Shown: one piece after another, positions 8,138 through 59,200 of the stretch
How the letters are laid out: the number at the start of each line of letters is the position of its first letter
Position numbering within the stretch: position 1 is the first letter of the stretch
Made by a program: the position numbers and the translations under genes
Notes under the pieces: generated by a model
Databases searched by the model: none
Told to the model about the DNA's origin: nothing
What the model saw: only the letters and a program-made list of their open reading frames with translations
From: Oryzias latipes
Taxonomy: Eukaryota > Chordata > Actinopteri > Beloniformes > Adrianichthyidae
Reading direction: 5' to 3'
Length of the DNA stretch: 64,000 bases
Assembly: GCF_002234675.1 (NCBI RefSeq)
Contig: NC_019859.2
Coordinates: 30,727,434-30,791,433 of the forward strand

Positions 8138-8141
8138 TTAA

Positions 8142-8346
8142 CCCTTGTGCTATCTTAGATGATCCCACCCTTACATTGACATGTTCTCCCTACCATGATA
8201 AAGGTGGAAAAAGGTGGAAAGATTTCATGTAATCCATGGACACCAGTGAAGGTCACAAATCATTGGAGAAAAAAGATTCAGAGCACTGTCTAGTGGGTCT
8301 AGATGACCCAACTCCCAACGTTAAAGTGCCTAGGATAGCACAAGGG
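8142..8346 (+). mobile_element. piggyBac-like MITE, copy 1
   Basis: The ends are CCCTTGTGCTATC and its inverted complement, and the element is flanked on both sides by TTAA (8138-8141 and 8347-8350). TTAA target duplications and CCC-starting inverted ends are diagnostic of the piggyBac superfamily. At 205 bp it has no coding capacity. Two further copies lie at 12558-12802 (opposite orientation) and 31148-31361. Confidence 0.75.
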
Positions 8347-8749
8347 TTAAGCACTTCACTGTGCAGTGCAAAGTATTCCTTGTGCCACTTTAGCTTCTTT
8401 ACCGAGCGTTATATTTGGACCTGGTCTTCTGACCCTGACTCTGTTTGCCTGCCCCAACCCTCGCTTGGATTTTGACCGCTCTGTCCCTCCTCTAATGATC
8501 TCATGCCTGCTATTGATCGCTGCCTGCCTGACTCTGATTTAGCTTTGTGGACTTTTAGCTGAGCTGCATTTGGATCCAGCCACCTGCTTGTTCCTGCGAC
8601 AGGTGAACTCTGCTCTTCCGGTTTGACAGCTCCAACCTGAATTCACTCTACCTGATGGTTTTTCACAGATCAAAAGCGTAAGACGTGTGCATTTGTGTTG
8701 ACTTCAGTAGTTTCTCAATAAAAAAAAAATAAAAAAACAGGCATTTCAA

Positions 8750-12557: not shown

Positions 12558-12802
12558 TAAGCAGATGTAAAACCTTTGACCTTTATTTTACTTGTAACCC
12601 TTGTGCTGTCCTAGGCACTTTAACATTGGGAGCTGGGTCATCTAGACCCACTAGACAGTGCGCTAAACCTTTTTTCTTCAATGATTTGTGATCTTCACTG
12701 GTGTCCATGGATTACATGAAATCCTCTCCACCTTTGTCATGGTAGGGAGAACATGTCAATGTCAGGATCGGGTCATCTGGACCCCATAGGATAGCACAAG
12801 GG
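12558..12802 (-). mobile_element. piggyBac-like MITE, copy 2 (inverted)
   Basis: It has the same inverted ends as the copy at 8142-8346 but lies in the opposite orientation. The right flank is TTAA (12803-12806); the left flank is GTAA, a one-base departure from TTAA. It lies between mpv17l and ntan1. Confidence 0.7.
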
Positions 12803-13581
12803 TTAACCACCTCTTTGGAGATGACCTTCTGTCTTTTTTCAACCATCCATCTCCTCTCTGCCTTCTTCTTCTTCATGATGCTTCCCTCTGACCTCACTCT
12901 CCTTCCACCTTTTGACTAAACCTTCTTCTGGCTTTCCGAGCTTCGTCTTCAGGAACTTTATGTGAGCTCTGATGTTCTCCTTCCTGTTGCTGTCCATCCT
13001 CATCAAATTCAAGGAGAGAATCTATGATCTTCTCCTGTCCGTCAGGTGCGTCAACATGACAGCTTCCTCCATCAACACCCCCCCCCCCCCACATGCTCTC
13101 TGTTTCTCTGAACTGTTGTCCAACAGCTACATTTTTCCGTCCAGACTCATCTTCACTTAGATGTCAAATCAGTTTCCAAACTGATGATTGTCCTCTTGAT
13201 ATTGTATGTTGGGACTCTGCAGCAGAAACTGTCCTGCTAGTTTTTAACGTATGCGGTGTCAGTCACGCAGGTTTGTTTGGTTTTAATCCCCGGAGATGCA
13301 GAAACTTTTCTACAACCTTTGTGTCTAATGTAATTATTAAAAATATATAAACCGTACATAGACATTAAATGCAATCAGAAATGTGCACCAACATTCTCTG
13401 TATTACCCAACCTGACAAATTTATTTTGTAAAACTCATGAAGCACAATGTTACATGTGATTTGGGGGGAAATTCTATTCAAATGTTCATAACTCATGTAC
13501 GAGCGACACGGCTACTCAGAACAAACTGTTGTCCATAAACACCTGGAAAAGAAAAACCTGAAACTTTTGTTCCCTGGAACC
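12803..13581. other. Intergenic sequence, nothing recognised
   Basis: Low-complexity CT-rich sequence and a run of C (13079-13090) are present. No exon or repeat family could be supported. Confidence 0.5.
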
Positions 13582-23895: not shown

Positions 23896-34474
<10,579 letters not shown>

Positions 34475-37695: not shown

Positions 37696-44480
<6,785 letters not shown>

Positions 44481-44805
44481 CTTTGCCACCCTGAAGTAAG
44501 CTTCCGATTTGTTCTACATAGCGCCGATAAAAGGCCAATCTGCTGTTAGTCCCTCAGGAATCCAGATCAAGACGTCTGCATTGTCATTTTTTATCATAAT
44601 AAAAAAATAACAATAAAAGTGTCTGATAAGTTTTTAAATTATAACACTAAAATCTAATATTATTAATTAATATTATTATTAAATAGTAATATGTCATATT
44701 TTTAATTAATGACTTCTTTCACATTATTAAACTCTGTTTTTGTGCGCACATTTGCAATAATATTTTATTCATCATCATTATTATTATTATTATTTATCAA
44801 ACACT

Positions 44806-44813
44806 TACATTGT
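44806..44813. other. Tol2 target-site duplication, left
   Basis: TACATTGT, identical to 49502-49509. Eight bases is the hAT-family duplication length. Confidence 0.97.
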
Positions 44814-45125
44814 CAGAGGTGTAAAAAGTACTCAAAAATTTTACTCAAGTGAAAGTACAAGTACTTAGGGAAAATTTTACTCAATTAAAAGTAAAAGTAT
44901 CTGGCTAGAATCTTACTTGAGTAAAAGTAAAAAAGTACTCCATTAAAATTGTACTTGAGTATTAAGGAAGTAAAAGTAAAAGCAAGAAAGAAAACTAGAG
45001 ATTCTTGTTTAAGCTTTTAATCTCAAAAAACATTAAATGAAATGCATACAAGGTTTTATCCTGCTTTAGAACTGTTTGTATTTAATTATCAAACTATAAG
45101 ACAGACAATCTAATGCCAGTACACG

Positions 45126-48100
45126 CTACTCAAAGTTGTAAAACCTCAGATTTAACTTCAGTAGAAGCTGATTCTCAAAATTGTTAGTGTCAAGCCTAGC
45201 TCTTTTGGGGCTGAAAAGCAATCCTGCAGTGCTGAAAAGCCTCTCACAGGCAGCCGATGCGGGAAGAGGTGTATTAGTCTTGATAGAGAGGCTGCAAATA
45301 GCAGGAAACGTGAGCAGAGACTCCCTGGTGTCTGAAACACAGGCCAGATATCCATCCAACTCTTTGCTGGCTTCATGTGTTGTCGGTTTCAAAGAAGCGA
45401 AAAAATCTTCATCATCAGATGAACTGTTGGCCAATTCCTTCTTGTGGTCCAAAGGCTCCAGATGCACTCTGATGTAGTCCATGCCTACAAGCACAGTGAG
45501 CAGACACAAAGAAAAGTTTGGTTGAGGGGCTTCTGACTGGGAACAAATTTTATGGATTTTGTCATTAACTACATTTACGTGCAGTCATCTACATCTAAAA
45601 TCATGCAAATCCCTTATTTTAGCATAAAATCTAACTGCATTTCCAAACCACATATGATACATATGAGTTTGGTTTCAAGAAACACTGAGGGATAACTACA
45701 ACCTGCTGCAAGAATACTTTACATCAATATTCATATTGAGATCACAGCCAAAGATGGGATATAACATTCCTAAAAAGTGCAAAAATAAATAAATAAAAGA
45801 ATAATTTTGGTATGGCTCAAAGGTTGCCCAGATTAGAATTCGTCAAGTGTATGTTGCTTGCATTCATTTACCTCGTTTTATGATGGTTTCATCATTTGTC
45901 CAAGAGGTCCGAAATTTAGGGAGAAGGATGGCAGCTGCTATGATCTCAGGATCTTCAAACATATGCTTGAATCGTGTTTGGATTCCTTGTTGTAGGGCAT
46001 CCACAAGTGGGTCACAGTACCTGAGAGAATGGTGGAGTCGCTGAAGTTTCAAGCTTAACTGATGGACACTAGGCAGCAGCCACCCCAGCTGTGTATTCGT
46101 TTCCGCTTGCAAGATGTCGAGTACTTTTGCAACTGGACGCATTGTGTTGGCCCACTCTGTCAAGAACAGCATTTCTGCTGGATTAAACCTACAGGAGAAA
46201 TCAGCATAATCAAAGAGTATTAAACAAAAACAACCCACATTTGTTTACATCGATAGAGGGGAAAAACACTTACATTGGAACCTCAAGAGAGGTGCATATA
46301 TTCCGAAGTGCGCCTTCTCCTGCTTCTTTGCAAATTTGAAGAATTCTGTCAACAGCCATAAAAGTTGAATTCCACCGCGTTTGGTTTGGCCTTAAAAGCT
46401 GAAGCCGGCTTTCTGATTCAACAGCTTCAGCTGCTAGAGCCGATCGGCTGCTTTTATTCCATAAAGCTTGGCATTTGCCAAAGACAGATCTGTAGAGTTT
46501 CTTGTAGTGTTCATTTGAGAGAGCTTTTTGGGCATCAACGCTTGAGACTAGGTTAAGTAAGTGACAGGCACACTTTTGATGTTTTGGTAGCTGGAATTCG
46601 AAGCCATCGTCTTGGTCCAGGACTCGTGAGGCATCTTGGAATTCCACACCATCACTTCCCTCACCACAGCCTTCAGAATCAGTGTCATCACTTTCACACC
46701 TTCTTGCCTCAGTCTCGATATCATTGTTTTCCACACCAAAAACTCTGAAAGCCTTCATAAAGTTGGAACCACTGTCTGTGGTTGTGCAAACAACCTTGTC
46801 ACGTATTTCATACTCTGAGTGGATATCATTCATGGCACTGGCCAGTACCTCAAAAGTATGAGAGCCCATTAATCTTTTGCAGGCAAGTGCAGCGGAATGT
46901 CTTTCAAGACTTCCAGGGTTGATCCAGTGAGCAGTTACACCAATGAATGACTTTCTACGTGCAGTCCAACAATCCGTTGTGGTTGCAATCCATTCAACTT
47001 CACTCATGGCAGCAGTCACTTTCTGTTTCATGATCAGAGCAGCTTCAGCTATCTTGGAGCGTAAAGTAGGCCTTGTAATGACAGAAATGCCAGGCTGCAG
47101 TGTACTAATCAGCTCTTTAAATGATGGCAGATCAACAGTGCTGAAAGGATGAAGTCCTTGAATGATGTACCTTAATATAGCTTTGTTCACAGTGACTGGA
47201 GACACATGTTTGACTGGGAAAACTGAGTCAACTTTCAGTTGCTTACTGCTGGAAGCATGGGTGGAGGTCCCGATCTTTCTCTTCTGTGCTGTCAATTTAG
47301 AGTAGTTTTTGAGGTAATTTGGGTGCATTCTCTGTAAAAACAACAAATAAATATTTATATTGTATGCAATAAATGTAACAATTACACATACACTCTCTGA
47401 TTACAGCATTAAAGGGTTAGTTCACCCAAAAATGAAAAGATGTCATTAATGACTCACCCTCATGTCGTTCCAAGCCCGTAACACCTCCGTTCATCTTCGG
47501 AACACAGTTTAAGATATTTTAGATTTAGTCCGAGAGCTTTCTGTCCCTCCACTGAAAATGTATGTACGGTATACTGTCCATGTCCAGAAAGGTAATAAAA
47601 ACATCAAAGTAGTCCATGTGACATCAGTGGGTTAGGTAGAATTATTTGAAGCATCGAAAATACATTTTGGTCCAAAAATAACAAAACCTACGACTTTATT
47701 CAGCATTGTAGCGTCACTGCGAAGTCGTGAACGCGGATTGACAACAGACCCGGAAGAGAATACAATGCCGAATAAAGTCGTAGGTTTTGTTATTTTTGGA
47801 CCAAAATGTATTCGATGCTTCAAAAAATTCTAACTAACCCACTGATGTCACATGGACTACTTTGATGTTTTTATTACCTTTCTGGACATGGACAGTATAC
47901 CGTACATACATTCTCAATGGAGGCACAGAAAGCTCTCGGACTAAATCTAAAATATCTTAAACTGTGTTCTGAAGATGAACGGAGGTCTTACGGGCTTGGA
48001 ACGACATGAGGGCGAGTCATTAATGACATTATTTTCATTTTTGGGTGAACTAACCCTTTAATAAAACTGACATTTGCAGCCAATTGCACACTTTATAATG

Positions 48101-48789
48101 TTAAATACTTGTTGATTTTAGAAATACAGTAGCATTTAGTGACAATCAAACATTAATTTTATTTCTGATTATATTGACAAAAACACAGGACTGTAAGGCT
48201 GACATGACAGGGTGAATTGATTTCATTACATTAGTTTTGATGGTAACACTTTTACAATAAGGTTCGTTAGTTAACTACATTAGTTAACATGAACTAATAA
48301 TGAACTGCACGTATACATGTTAATTTCAACATTTACTAATACTTTATATCTTGTTAACATTAGTTAATGCACTGTGAACTAACATGAACAAACAATGAAC
48401 ATCTGTATTTCTATTAACTAACGTTAACAAAGATTAACAGATACAGTAACAAATGTATTGCTCATGGTTATTTAATGTTAGTTAATACATGAACTAATCA
48501 ACCTCATTGTAAAGTGTTACCGTTTTGACAATACAACATGTTTGGAAAAAAATTTCTCGCTTGGTTTTCTTGTGTTTTGCATGAATTCAAACACAATGAG
48601 AGCACGGAATGATAATGATTATTCAAAGCTGCAATAGGCGCCAAATTTCCCGTGGACCTAACGTTACCAATTACAAATGCATTTTAGCATTTTATTACGT
48701 GAGCCTTATATTGTCAATCGCATGCATTAGTGAAAATAGGCCTACTACACATATAAAAGGCGCGCCATCAACGTCAAAACATGCACACC

Positions 48790-48827
<38 letters not shown>

Positions 48828-49074
48828 ATCAGTAAAACAAAATACTTAATGTACTTACCTCAATATGCTTCCTTAGGTTTGATGGCGAACTTTTGAAGGC
48901 CGATATTTCTTTATTAAGCGGGAGACAGAGGACACATTTCATCTTGAATGAATCTTTATTTACACCACTTAAAGAAAAGAATTCGCGAAGATACGGCCAC
49001 GGGTGCTCTTGATCCTGTGGCTGATTTTGGACTGTGCTGCTCGCAGCTGCTGATGAATCACATACTTCCTCCAT
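45126..49074 (-). CDS. Tol2 transposase, complete, 4 exons, 649 residues
   Basis: Exons are 49074-48859, 47331-46274, 46188-45872 and 45484-45126 (1950 nt). Phases agree at all junctions and each has a GT donor and AG acceptor. The ATG at 49074 gives MEEVCDSSAAASSTVQNQPQ; an in-frame extension upstream to 49182 exists but is not the usual start. Residues about 28-76 form a BED zinc finger whose CxxC (MKCVLCLP) and HxxxxH (KHIERMHP) lie across the exon 1/2 junction. The middle is the RNase H-like catalytic core of hAT transposases. The C-terminus has the hAT dimerisation segment ASAACERLFSTAG (about 606-618). The enzyme cuts at the CAGAGGTGTAAA ends and reinserts with 8-bp duplications. The frame is open throughout, so this copy may be autonomous. 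The identity with the published Tol2 protein is from memory. Confidence 0.95.
47409..48061. repeat. Internal palindrome of Tol2 (Angel-like MITE), arms about 300 bp
   Basis: The left arm runs from TTAAAGGGTTAGTTCACCC (47409) to about 47710 and the right arm from about 47760 to 48061, inverted. The arms agree along nearly their full length with a few mismatches and a loop of about 50 bp. The outer TTAA-like ends suggest an originally separate palindromic MITE that landed in the first intron of the transposase gene. Confidence 0.9.
48242..48521. repeat. Second MITE-like block in Tol2 intron 1
   Basis: The ends GGTAACACTTTTACAATAAG and, inverted, GGTAACACTTTACAATGAGG form a terminal inverted repeat of about 20 bp around a body rich in GTTAACTAA motifs. 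It is 280 bp long. It resembles a repeat I remember as very common in carp-family fish genomes. Confidence 0.7.
48790..48825 (+). repeat. Poly-A run in Tol2 intron 1
   Basis: About 36 consecutive A. Its length is the likeliest source of size differences from other Tol2 copies. Confidence 0.9.
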
Positions 49075-49501
49075 TTTCTTCCACTGATTGACTGTTATAA
49101 TTTCCCTAATTTCCAGGTCAAGGTGCTGTGCATTGTGGTAATAGATGTGACATGACGTCACTTCCAAAGGACCAATGAACATGTCTGACCAATTTCATAT
49201 AATGTGAAAACGATTTTCATAGGCAGAATAAATAACATTTAAATTAAACTGGGCATCAGCGCAATTCAATTGGTTTGGTAATAGCAAGGGAAAATAGAAT
49301 GAAGTGATCTCCAAAAAATAAGTACTTTTTGACTGTAAATAAAATTGTAAGGAGTAAAAAGTACTTTTTTTTCTAAAAAAATGTAATTAAGTAAAAGTAA
49401 AAGTATTGATTTTTAATTGTACTCAAGTAAAGTAAAAATCCCCAAAAATAATACTTAAGTACAGTAATCAAGTAAAATTACTCAAGTACTTTACACCTCT
49501 G

Positions 49502-49509
49502 TACATTGT
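49502..49509. other. Tol2 target-site duplication, right
   Basis: TACATTGT, the exact copy of 44806-44813. Confidence 0.97.
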
Positions 49510-49663
49510 CCATGCAGCCCTGAAGTGCTGTACAGTGTCAGAATAACAAAAAAAAAAAAAGAAGTGGAGTGAAACAGTTAACGAAAGAAAAAAAAGAGAC
49601 TACAATCCATACACTGACTTCGTTGCAGTCCCTTTTGTCGGACTATCTTCCTGGGGCCTGATA

Positions 49664-49690
49664 TCGCGAGAGCTAAGCAACATCTCGCGT
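49664..49690. promoter_or_regulatory. Paired TCTCGCG half-sites in the gga1/micall1 promoter region
   Basis: TCGCGAGA (49664-49671) and TCTCGCGT (49683-49690) are close to the TCTCGCGAGA palindrome found in many bidirectional TATA-less vertebrate promoters. They start a CpG-rich block (about 49640-50300) leading into micall1 exon 1. Confidence 0.4.
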
Positions 49691-50292
49691 GAGTAAGTTC
49701 TGTAGCTCGTGTCCGCCACGGTTAGCCTCCTATCCTCTTGGCAAGCGCAACCGCGCGCGCTCAGTTGTGTACGTACAGGAACAGTCGGGAGGGTTTTTCA
49801 TAAGATGCTTCAGCTCGAGGGCAGTATCCGCGCACTGTCCATCCGGGAAACGGAAACGTTTTAACCCCCTTTGCTGAGGCCGTCGAGTGGTCCGTACTTT
49901 TAGTGTTTTAATCTAGCCGCCGCGGGTCCTTTAACAGCCGATCACACCGTGCTGTGACCCGCTAGGGAGGGAACTGTCACCTCTGTGCGAAATCTGCATC
50001 TCTGAAACGAAATCGAGCTGAACCAGGAAAATCTGTCAACTCCAAGTTCACGAACGGCTGCCATGGTGGCGGCGAAGCTCACGCGGCTCCGCGGACAACT
50101 TTGTTTTCTTCACCTTGGAGAGCCGCAGACATTAAAAGTCCAGATTCAGCGCAGGACATGAAGCTCGCGCGGATTTGCGTCAGCTAGCATTTACCTGTAC
50201 CGCCCAGGTTTGGGACACGAAAAAAGAGGACGCGCTTTGACCTCCCCCGGCCATCATCTCCTCGGGGACGCAGCTGCCTGGCTGGAGGCGTG

Positions 50293-53200
50293 ATGGGGTC
50301 GCTGAAGGCTCTTCAGGAGTGGTGTCGGCTCCAGTGTCAGGGCTACAGCGGTGTGGAGGTCAGGGACATGTCTGCGTCCTTTCGGGACGGCCTGGCGTTC
50401 TGTGCCATCATTCACCGGCACAGACCAGACCTCATGTGAGTAACAGCAAAGACGCATCACACGCAGCTCAACTCCAACACTTTTCACTGGTTTAAAAGCA
50501 TCTGTTATTTTGGTCTTCAGGCCTCTGATTCTGACTGTTGTCAGACTTGAGTGTAACCTCATTTAAACTTTTGTTATTACTCAGCCAAGTCCCTTCTCGT
50601 TTGTTATGGCTGCCCCCTTTCACCTAAAGTGTCTGGTCTGGTTGTGTTTTTAGCAAAGCCAGAGCAGCAGATAGCCCAGTGTTGTGTGAGGAACTGGAAC
50701 TGACAATCATGGGATGCATCTGCAGCTCGGCTCCCCTCCACCTGCTCAAAGCAAAACAAAACATCTTCATCTGCACGGTCCACCACAGACTAAGATCATG
50801 TTTGCTCCCCTTTTAAAAGGGAAAACCCTCTCACCTTCCCACTCAGATCAACTAAATCCAACTTTGTCGTGAGGACGACTGAAACCAGACAAGTTTGGAG
50901 TTTTGCTGCACAACATATCAAGAGTAACTGGATGTAAAACCAGCAGTTCCTCTGATTTATTTTGTAACTAAATAACTTCAGTAGAGAGGATAAAGCTACA
51001 ACTTTTTCCTGTGTCAGTCTGCTACTTTAATTTATCAGGCATCCAAGCTGGGTATTGGGATAAAGTTAAAATAAAGTCCAAGATTTTAAAATATAAATGT
51101 TGCTCACCTTTCGGAATATCCCATCAGGGGATAAATCGGCTTCGCACAGGTTGTTTTGGCAGAGATTGGCTACATAGTTAGACAGTAATGCGTAGTGTCT
51201 AGCAAATGGCTGGCATTTTGAATTTTTCTCATGGCTCTCGTGCTTTTTTGAAAGAGGTACATTCGTGCCGCATTTGGTGCTTGTACCACAAAATGCACGA
51301 TTTACCTGAAATATCAACCTAACCGGCTCTGTTAAAGTAGGGCTTTTATACAACATTCAGCTCAGATTGCTCTGCAGGGGCCCGGATGTCCCACCTCACA
51401 ATGCAAAACCATTTGTGCAAAACAGCAGACATGTACCATGCAAAACCAAAGCAAAAGTGAGCTGGCCTCAAACTACACTTCATTATGAAACTTTTGCATA
51501 CTTTTGATATTGCCTGTTGTTGAACTGCTCATTTCTCCTCTTGAAAAAGCATTTTGAGGCCCTTCAGCTCACTTCAAGATGCAGAGAAAGCAGTCCACTG
51601 CCGGACGTGTTTGCAAAAATGCAGCCAAATAGAATAGTTTGCATGTCTTTAGGTTTGATCTATTTTTAATGCATCTGTAGTTGCATGTGTTCATATCATA
51701 TATTGTTTTTCTTTTTGAATGTACTGGAAGGACTTTATGTCCAGCAAAAGGTTAAGAGGTTTTTCTTGCAGATTGACAGGAAGTCCTGTTTACACGGAAA
51801 ACTGATCGCTTTAAACATGCAGTGGAGCAGCAACACTTGTCTTTGTAATGGAGTATATCGTTAGTGGTGAGTTCATACCTGTCTCAGTGCACAGATTCTG
51901 CTCTGTCGGTACAGGAAACATGCATCCATCATGTTGGATTTCATTCAACTGTGTTATGAGAATCACTAGGATGACTTTAGGCTTTCCTGATCCACTGAGT
52001 GAATTGAGGGGTGGACATGTAGTCTGGAGTAAATGTAGTGGAACATATCTACCTTAAAGAGCACAGTGGTAAAGTCTAAAGTACAAGAATGATGAAATCC
52101 TATTCACAGTTTTATGCATCTCATGATTGTGTTTAGCTCTTCGTTTGGTGAAAGCCGGGGATTGAGACGGACAGTTGATCCGACTAAGAATGCGCAGAAA
52201 GCTCTGCCTGTCGGACTGGATTTGGCTCCAATGCAGAGGCACGCCGCTGCAGGACTGCAGCCTTAGCTGCAGAGCAGGCTATTACCACAGTAAATGCTTC
52301 ATTTAATCAGCCTTCCCTTAGCCTGCTTGGAGGAATTTGTTTTGATGTTGGTAAACCAAAGCAGGCACAGCATTGCTGCAGATCTGAACTACATTTAGTT
52401 CATATCTTACTTTTTTAAGGACTTTAGTCTGAGCTGTTGTTGCTCATCAGACTCACTCGGACGGATGCTGAGTCATCGTTAGTCATTTATCCTACCTGTT
52501 ATTCTTGCATTCAAAGTGTGTTTTCTGGTGTGATCTGCAGAGTCACACTTTTCTCCAGCTTTTCTTCCAAAATAAATCTGTTGTTGAAGTTGGAGTCAGA
52601 GCGGATTACGTTTGCCTCTCCCTTTACACACCTCATCATCCTTTGCTGTCAGCTGGCCCTGGGGATTTGAACCCCCACCAACTGGTAGTATTTTTAGTAG
52701 CTGCAGTTGGAGTCTGCTTTTAAGGTGGAGTTGGCACGTTGGACATTTTGAAACGAGACCTGGATCCGATGCCTGCTGCTCCGAGTTTGTGGCCATGGGA
52801 GCCTGAGAGAACAGAGGTCACTCTTTGTGGCTCCAACACTCGGCTGATTCACGACACCGGTTTCCACAATATGCCCACATTTCTGCACGCATTCACTGAC
52901 GCACGCGACCACAGAGATGTTTTACTGCAGGAAGTTTTCAGGCCGGGGTTCAGCTTCACAGCTTGGCCTCATAATGATCAGCCTCTTGGTTGGTCCCGCT
53001 GGTTTTCCTCTTTTCCACGTTACACCTCATAAATACGTGGCTCATGAATCATCCCCTCTGGTGTGCGGGAGGCACAGCAGCTCACCTTTGCTGTGTAGCA
53101 TGCAGCCAATAATAGCAGTAGATGATCCTTCCATAAGTATACAGTCTGAAAACTAAATGCCGTCCTGTCTCCACTTGTCACCTTCACAGTTTCCCTGCAA

Positions 53201-56200: not shown

Positions 56201-59200
56201 CACAGGCGAGTGGGCGTAACCCTCCAGAAGAAGCCATGGCCCACCTGCACAGAAAACAAAGAGAGGAAAACAAATGTAAACTGACAGACGGGGTCAGTCA
56301 CAGAAACCCGTCAATGTGCTTCAATGGATTTATTGCAACTTTTTCTGGTGCTCTTGATTTTACAATTTGTGGATTTTTTTCACTCTAACTTAAAAACATA
56401 ACAGTTGATGTTGGCTCACTGTTTGTCTGTGAAGCTTCAGCATTAATCCCCCCCCCACAGGCTTTTGAAGTGGCTGAGTCTCAGCTGGGGATTCCTGCCC
56501 TGCTGGACCCAGAAGACATGGTGTCCATGAAGGTGCCTGACCGGCTCAGCATCATCACATACGTGTCGCAGTACTACAACTTTTTCAACGACAGGTCTAC
56601 AGGTGTGTTTCCCGTTTCTGCTGTTGCCTCGAGTGGATCCCGCGGGAGTGATGATCGTGGCCTCTGCCTCTGCATCCACAGCAAACCCGCCTTCAGTGAA
56701 GAGGCTGGCTCCTGCCGGACAGACTGAGCCGGCCCTGAAGAAGCCTCTCGGCCCTAAAGACAGCGACGCGACAGAGAATGAGGTAAGTTAGAGGTTGGAA
56801 TGTGTTGGAGGCCTGGAGTTCATGTTGACTCTAGAGCGCGCATGTTTCCTGCTACATCTGCATGACAGCAATCTGTGGCCGTAGGGTTAGATTTTATTTT
56901 CCTGATGAGGTTATTGTCCTAGATAGGGGTGTAACACAAAGAACTCACTGGGATCCTTTTGTGATACTCTGTGTTTAGGACGTGCATCTGTATTTAAAGT
57001 TGCATCACGTTTGTCATTATGCATGGACTGCAAAAACACATGTCACTGTACAACAATAGACGCCTCTGTCTTTTTATATACACGGACTTCCTTGTGTGAA
57101 GGTTGCAGCGCAGCATGGACATGGGTAGAATAATTCTATGAAGATAGCCTCTGTATCGTGTCTCTCTTTTGTCTTGCATGCCTTCAAACCTGTTTCCTCC
57201 AAACCCCGTACCGGCATCCTTCCCATCACCCCCTTCTCTCACACTCCCCTCTTCAGATGGAAACTCATTGTTCTCCCTCATCTTCCTGTTCTTCATCCCC
57301 ACATCTGCTCTCCACTCCTGAACCTAGGCAGTAGGGCAGGGTGGGGTTTGGGGTGGAGTTTTGCTGTGAAGGAAAACAAGAAGTCAGTTTTGTTTGTTTT
57401 TAAATCTCAGTGATTTCACTCTGACCCTCTAGTGTTGCAGTTTGCCTTTTTCTAAAATCTTTTTTAGTTACCGGTACCGGTACCGGTAACAAAACCCTTG
57501 AAGGAATCTTATCCATGTCAGTTATGACTGAAACAAGTATTTACCAGAGTCACTAACCGGGCGGGTTTTGTTTTTGACTCACACTTTAGTGCTAACCCTG
57601 TATGGGTTTATTTAGAAGGGGAGGATCGTGTTCATGAACTGAGCAGAGGGAATGTTCCACGTCTCCAAATCCTGACTCCATGTATGATCTCCCCCATTAC
57701 TCTTCATCTTCCCCTTCCCCCTTCCCCCGGTGTCTTTTCCTTGTCTGCGTTGCTGACATCAAACCCGTGGCGGCCACCTTCAGTCAGTCCAGCCTGCACA
57801 GACGGCGGGCGTAGAACCGGCTGCCAAACGCAGCACCCTGAGCAGCACCTGCTCCGCCTGCCACAAACACGTCCACCTGGTGCAGCGGTTCCTGGTGGAC
57901 GGCAAGCTGTACCACCGTAACTGTTTCAGGTGAGGCTTCTATGGGGATGGCAAGAATCTAACGCTGATGTGACCAGCTGGGAATTTGTCTTTAAGTGGTT
58001 AAAAATTGGTTTTGTGTCTGAAAGCATTTCAATCCAAAAAAGAAAAAGGGATTTTGTTGCTCTAATATTTCCTTCTTAACAAAAAAATTCTGCAGGACAG
58101 ACCAACTTCTGGGCCTCAGGAGCAGGTCTGCTGAGGAAAAACCCTCAGACCCACTCCGGAGATGTATAATTGCTACTGAATTTATATTAAATATTTATAA
58201 ATATTTGTTGGAAACAGTTTAATTGATTTAATAACCCAATGGTTATGAGACCAAGTTAAAAGGACGATCATGAGAAGGATCGGTTTTTTATTCTTTTCCA
58301 GCAGGTCAGTCAGGAAATACGAGTTTTACTGCCTTATCCAAGGTGGATCAAAAACCTGACTTTATCCGGTTTCTGATTCACAGACTCAGTCTATACATAA
58401 AGAAGTACATAAAGTGTGTTTTTTTTAAATAAAAATGTAATAAAACATATGAGCCAATCAGAAGGAAGTTGAGTGTAAAATCACTGTACTGTGTGTGAAC
58501 AGTTCAGACATGGTTATAATTGAATCAATAATTCAAACCAGCACCTACAGATGTGATCAGATTACTGATAGAGGCATCATACAAATAGTAAAAAAAAATC
58601 AATGAGAAGATGGGGTAAAGATGAGTGACGATGATGGTAAATCTAAGAAGCAGAAAATGACGACAAACAGAAACACTGGAGCCTCTTCTAGAGCACATGT
58701 AACAAACTCGAGGCCTGTGGGCCACATCTAGCCCGGCGTGTAATTATACCCGGCCCATGAGATCCTTCTATATCATTGTTATTAATGGCCCGGCGATATG
58801 TAGTGCTGGTAACGCATTAAAATTCAGATTCCATCATGCAGCGCTTCAGCTGCCGCGCCGAACACTTCATGACGTTTCGGAAAACAGAGCCTTTTAAAAA
58901 CTGATGGGAGGCAGAATATATGTTTACTGACATGGCCGGTAAACCCATGCGTCTAATTTGTGGAGCTAATGTGACTGTAATTAGAAACAGAACGTGGGTC
59001 AAAATACGCACTTTGCTGATAAATTAAGCCCGCCGCTTTGAGGAACGAAAAAATGAATTTTGTTTGTCTTCCTTACCCATTGGGCACCGATTGAGCTGCA
59101 GTGTTTTGGCACACTGAAGTACGACACTTCAGGGCCGCACAGTTTATTCACTCCATTCCCGCAGAAATGCCCCGGCTTCGTCTACATGCGGCTCCCTCCT

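Follow-up and report, generated by a model that had tools for sequence, protein, structure and literature searches.

A recent, full-length Tol2 insertion between the gga1 and micall1 start regions of medaka, probably private to the Hd-rR lineage

Introduction

Transgenic fish are commonly made with Tol2 as the vector, and the element's recent arrival in medaka has already been published as a case of transposon invasion. Koga et al. are said to have described that invasion in 2000. A medaka locus at which a Tol2 copy lies between the head-to-head genes gga1 (minus strand) and micall1 (plus strand) raises a plain question: what is this element, how recently did it arrive, and has it altered the genes on either side? 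We addressed it in a stretch of 64,000 nucleotides, hereafter the window (C1:30727434-30791433), and in the genome to which the window belongs (734,051,031 bases in 25 contigs).

Results

Identity and boundaries of the element. An earlier note on this DNA had placed a whole Tol2 at 44806-49509. An element is indeed there, but that span takes in both target-site duplications, and the element proper is shorter:

44814-49501, minus strand (that of its transposase gene): complete Tol2, 4688 bp, recognized by its ends, duplication, open gene and copies elsewhere
44806-44813, no strand: left 8-bp target-site duplication TACATTGT, by letter comparison
49502-49509, no strand: right 8-bp target-site duplication TACATTGT, by letter comparison
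44814-45013, plus strand: left 200 bp (transposase 3' side) with terminal and subterminal repeats, by own-genome search
49302-49501, minus strand: right terminal region (transposase 5' side), by match to a published primer
48791-48825, plus strand: A-tract of 35, the chief source of length differences among copies

The ends are intact and the duplication is perfect, much as had been claimed. TACATTGT is equal at 8/8 bases on the two sides, and the 20-base primers for both Tol2 ends printed in excerpts of PMC4818426 and PMC3078864 are identical to the ends found here, with CAGAGGTGTAAAGTACTTGA exact at 49482-49501 (minus) and CAGAGGTGTAAAAAGTACTC exact at 44814-44833 (plus). It is scarcely credible that the element is instead goldfish Tgf2 or some other Tol2-like hAT transposon. 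The active relative Tgf2 resembles our element at its ends and, at 4720 bp, nearly in length (PMC4890040, in excerpt), but a 50-base Tgf2 end aligns to our element with one insertion and one substitution where the Tol2 primers are exact at both ends, and a length of 4688 bp and a total of 15 copies suit Tol2 in Hd-rR. Tgf2 is ruled out by the end sequence. Carriage by a virus was considered and rejected: a scan of viral contigs with transposase exon 2 yielded four pattern matches and no confirmed relative. A near-match search of plasmid records returned no matches.

The transposase gene. The element carries a four-exon gene:

49074-48859, minus strand: transposase exon 1 (649-aa form), 216 nt
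47331-46274, minus strand: transposase exon 2, 1058 nt
46188-45872, minus strand: transposase exon 3, 317 nt
45484-45126, minus strand: transposase exon 4, 359 nt

Joined across GT-AG introns, these exons give the uninterrupted 649-residue reading proposed before, with no internal stop; an in-frame ATG upstream at 49182 would add 36 residues to exon 1. The catalytic residues D192, D258 and E611, as named in excerpts of the review PMC8151067, stand in their expected places, and the transposase would be expected to work. The same excerpts give exons of 117, 352, 102 and 118 aa, figures with which exons 2 and 4 agree and exons 1 and 3 do not. No Pfam family matched the 649-aa protein at E 0.001, and the Hermes transposase, of solved structure, matched weakly (E 4e-5 over the whole sequence, no single stretch passing alone).

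Repeats nested in intron 1. Two repeats lie between exons 1 and 2:

47408-48062, no strand: long inverted repeat of two ~303-bp arms 50 bp apart
48240-48523, no strand: second MITE-like block with inverted ends, by comparison of its ends

Angel is a repeat of zebrafish and the carp family. We take the long inverted repeat for Tol2's internal Angel element, a name for which the Figure 2 legend of PMC8151067, seen in excerpt, is the one source. All counts from the own-genome searches with these repeats are lower bounds, very common words having been skipped. One arm of the inverted repeat gave 30 strong matches (one partial), all within the 15 Tol2 copies described below, and six matches elsewhere of ~72 bases at 78-81%; for the second block, every one of the 15 full-length matches (48240-48521) fell within Tol2, and five further matches, at 72-89%, were partial. 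Free copies of both repeats are likely absent from this medaka genome, judging by these matches. Since no full-length repeat of either kind was found outside the 15 Tol2 copies, Tol2 presumably carried them in. We tentatively entertain the idea that they are a fingerprint of the genome from which Tol2 came, and with it the idea that Hd-rR alone may carry this insertion as a natural allele of gga1; we hold this joint reading to be rather less probable than not. If it were true, a fish lineage in which both repeats are free and abundant would be the donor or near the donor. A literature search with the two repeat strings found no paper printing copies of them.

Separately, inverted pairs of the ~72-base matches to a nested-repeat end, 4-5 kb apart, occur at C12:22000686-22004906 and C18:25087538-25092923; they may mark the termini of larger related elements.

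Fifteen copies in one genome. With the left 200 bases as query, 15 places matched at 100%, the window's included, and three more at 71-75%. The finding is not a product of chance: 14 further near-identical copies stand elsewhere in the same genome. Each of the 15 has its own perfect 8-bp duplication, different in every case. Exact ends accompany the perfect duplications in 13 of the other 14; in the fourteenth (L017) the last base is changed and the duplication, CTCGTGAC in the raw letters, is intact. Outside the A-tract, nine of the 15 are identical. Three of the other 14 (L011, L018 and L022) equal the window copy at all 4688 bases, five differ from it in the A-tract alone, and six differ outside the A-tract, L014 by a 119-base deletion.

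The transposase is unchanged in 12 of the 14 other copies. L016 (C10:1750680-1757370) bears D314Y, and L017 (C10:1682936-1689630) has a 15-base coding deletion and an exon 2 that reads with a stop. These two copies, ~63 kb apart on C10, have three substitutions (one of them D314Y in L016) and a 3-base deletion in common, a pattern that looks like local re-insertion: a local hop, with one sister decayed. Exchange between the inverted arms was rejected as a source of the differences among copies, the changed positions 47477, 47489, 47869 and 48043 lying outside the 13 positions at which the arms differ.

Diverged Tol2-like left ends (71-75%) were also seen at L023:501-661, on the minus strand of L024 from 5874 and on the minus strand of L025 from 5360; L025 additionally holds a broken transposase relative at ~32% identity.

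Age and strain distribution. Exon 2 as query matched the genome 15 times at 99-100%, and the next match stood at 40% (70 matches, 115 of 136 candidates having been scored); among those 115, nothing of intermediate divergence was present. Both the insertion of the window copy and the arrival of the element are recent, because the near-identical relatives of that copy each have their own duplication and are followed, among the scored candidates, by a sharp gap from 99-100% to 40%. The suggestion that the copy is likely recent is thereby upheld, three other copies being identical to it throughout. An old insertion, vertically inherited and kept at this site across Oryzias, is very improbable against that same three-way identity over all 4688 bases and the lack of intermediate relatives among the scored candidates.

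Excerpts of PMC5705604 give genome sizes of ~733.5, 677 and 744 Mb for the Hd-rR, HNI and HSOK strains and full Tol2 copies numbering 15, 5 and 16, respectively, more than 99.4% identical in the three strains and "in different positions." Our count of 15 equals the figure printed there for Hd-rR. We infer that the genome examined here is that of Hd-rR, and the window copy is very likely among the 15 copies that the paper reports for it. The quoted phrase, whose wording is open to more than one reading, may be taken to mean positions that differ between strains, and on that wording polymorphism between strains is probable. The earlier proposal that the insertion could be polymorphic is thus probably right, on the strength of that excerpted phrase and of the one genome read here. 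The site would be empty in other strains, and the window copy is probably private to the Hd-rR lineage.

The neighboring genes. The two start codons that flank the element are as follows:

44478-44480, minus strand: gga1 start codon, inside the YY1-type motif AAGATGGCGGC (44473-44483, minus)
50293-50295, plus strand: micall1 start codon, with a CH domain downstream

From the gga1 ATG (44480, minus) it is 333 bases to the element, close to the ~330 bp given before, and from the micall1 ATG (50293, plus) it is 791 bases; without the insert, the two ATGs would be 1116 bases apart by our count, in keeping with the earlier figure of about 1117 bp. The name gga1 is based on minus-strand VHS and GAT pieces (Pfam, below the curated cut-offs) and on the solved structures matched by the VHS piece, GGA1 best (E 6e-12), then GGA3 (8e-9) and GGA2 (6e-8). 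For micall1, the basis is a plus-strand CH domain and bMERB piece, above the Pfam cut-off, and LIM pieces, below it. In the Pfam scan of ten pieces, 57921-58079 matched no family. Beyond gga1 lies a helicase piece (33566-33940) that presumably belongs to a DDX5/DDX17-type gene.

Other features of the window deserve mention in their own right. Near the helicase gene, an open frame at 29926-30345 (plus) encodes a Myb/SANT-like DNA-binding domain (PF13873, E 6e-14), of a kind that occurs in Harbinger-type transposons. A perfect 84-bp tandem duplication at 28526-28689 (100% matches) is either a recent duplication or an assembly artifact, and a dispersed repeat of ~220 bp, 85-90% identical and in both orientations, stands at 8138-8350, 12592-12810 and 31140-31367.

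One promoter or two start regions? The earlier note held that the element had split a compact bidirectional promoter. We counted CpG in 100-base bins on the empty site, with the insert removed. The gga1 side (44101-44600) is moderately CpG-rich, with 3-11 CpG per bin, the bin 44401-44500 having an observed/expected ratio of only 0.43; the micall1 side (49597-50396) is clearly CpG-rich, with 6-10 CpG per bin. Between these stretches runs a spacer of 12-35% G+C with at most one CpG per bin, and Tol2 is inside it. The insert does lie between the gene starts, but the idea of a single shared start region finds only partial support: there is an AT-rich spacer between two CpG-rich stretches. Because the element landed in that spacer, it came between two likely start regions and did not interrupt a CpG island.

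Both sides keep motifs of their own. At gga1, AAGATGGCGGC still covers the ATG; we take it to be of the YY1 type, the kind of motif that YY1 binds. The micall1 side retains the TCTCGCG block assigned to it before, in the form of two elements:

49662-49671, no strand: near-palindromic CGCG element TATCGCGAGA, one mismatch from TCTCGCGAGA
49683-49692, no strand: near-palindromic CGCG element TCTCGCGTGA, one mismatch from TCTCGCGAGA

These are presumably of the motif type bound by BANP. Their distance to the gga1 ATG is ~5.2 kb with the insert in place and would be ~0.5 kb on the empty site.

Start sites and CpG islands are, in published excerpts, a reported insertion preference of Tol2. We found no enrichment among the natural sites: a CpG-island-like 200-base sliding bin occurred in 5/15 insertion sites versus 9/20 controls, and we reject the notion that the 15 insertions as a set favor CpG-rich DNA. 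The controls were 20 random 2-kb pieces (the first 2 kb of an intended 10 kb) drawn from 12 of the 25 contigs, eight of which were hit. The window's own site ranked first among the 35, with 109 CpG-island-like bins, and 24 of 27 window tiles held such a bin, so the whole neighborhood is CpG-richer than average.

Discussion

We consider it highly probable that Tol2, a hAT transposon whose coding sequence is intact here, recently reached the AT-rich spacer that separates the gga1 and micall1 start regions by ordinary cut-and-paste transposition, most likely in the Hd-rR lineage of medaka, and that neither gene would be much affected, since both retain start regions of their own. gga1 may be slightly affected, and a regulatory effect seems less likely than no marked effect.

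The same element of the same age could instead have made a strain-specific regulatory allele, in which removal of the CGCG elements to a distance, or read-through from the transposase into gga1, alters gga1 RNA. In its favor, the CGCG elements at 49662-49692 are separated from gga1 by the insert, the transposase gene is on the same strand as gga1 and directed toward it, and a search of 44700-45130 for AATAAA on that strand gives a single hit (44764-44769), outside the element. Two ATTAAA signals, however, are inside it (45016-45021 and 45081-45086), and gga1 retains its YY1-type motif at the ATG and the CpGs around and downstream of it. Excerpts of PMC5705604, comparing two strains, describe raised transcripts at 101 start sites that carry insertions of 1-10 kb, but that set needed an insertion within 100 bp of the start site, and here the distance to the ATG is 333 bp. 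We regard such an allele as improbable and favor a recent insertion of little consequence. Our literature search found no paper naming Tol2, medaka and gga1 together.

The contribution of the window copy is a natural insertion, precisely placed between the starts of two genes, that existing inbred strains make open to test; comparing the 15 copies adds a sharp gap, 99-100% and then 40% among scored candidates, that marks recent arrival.

The copy itself is an ordinary full Tol2, already described, and there is nothing new about the element as such. With Tol2 as known, it has in common the ends, the 8-bp duplication, the four-exon 649-aa transposase, D192/D258/E611 and the internal inverted repeat; the printed length of Tol2 (GenBank D84375) is 4682 bp versus 4688 bp here, and A-tract length differs among the copies of this genome. 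Goldfish Tgf2 is likewise of the hAT family and has similar ends, but is longer (4720 bp, with a 686-aa transposase) and differs twice within its 50-base end. Hermes is a distant relative of the Tol2 transposase, recognizable by a weak sequence match.
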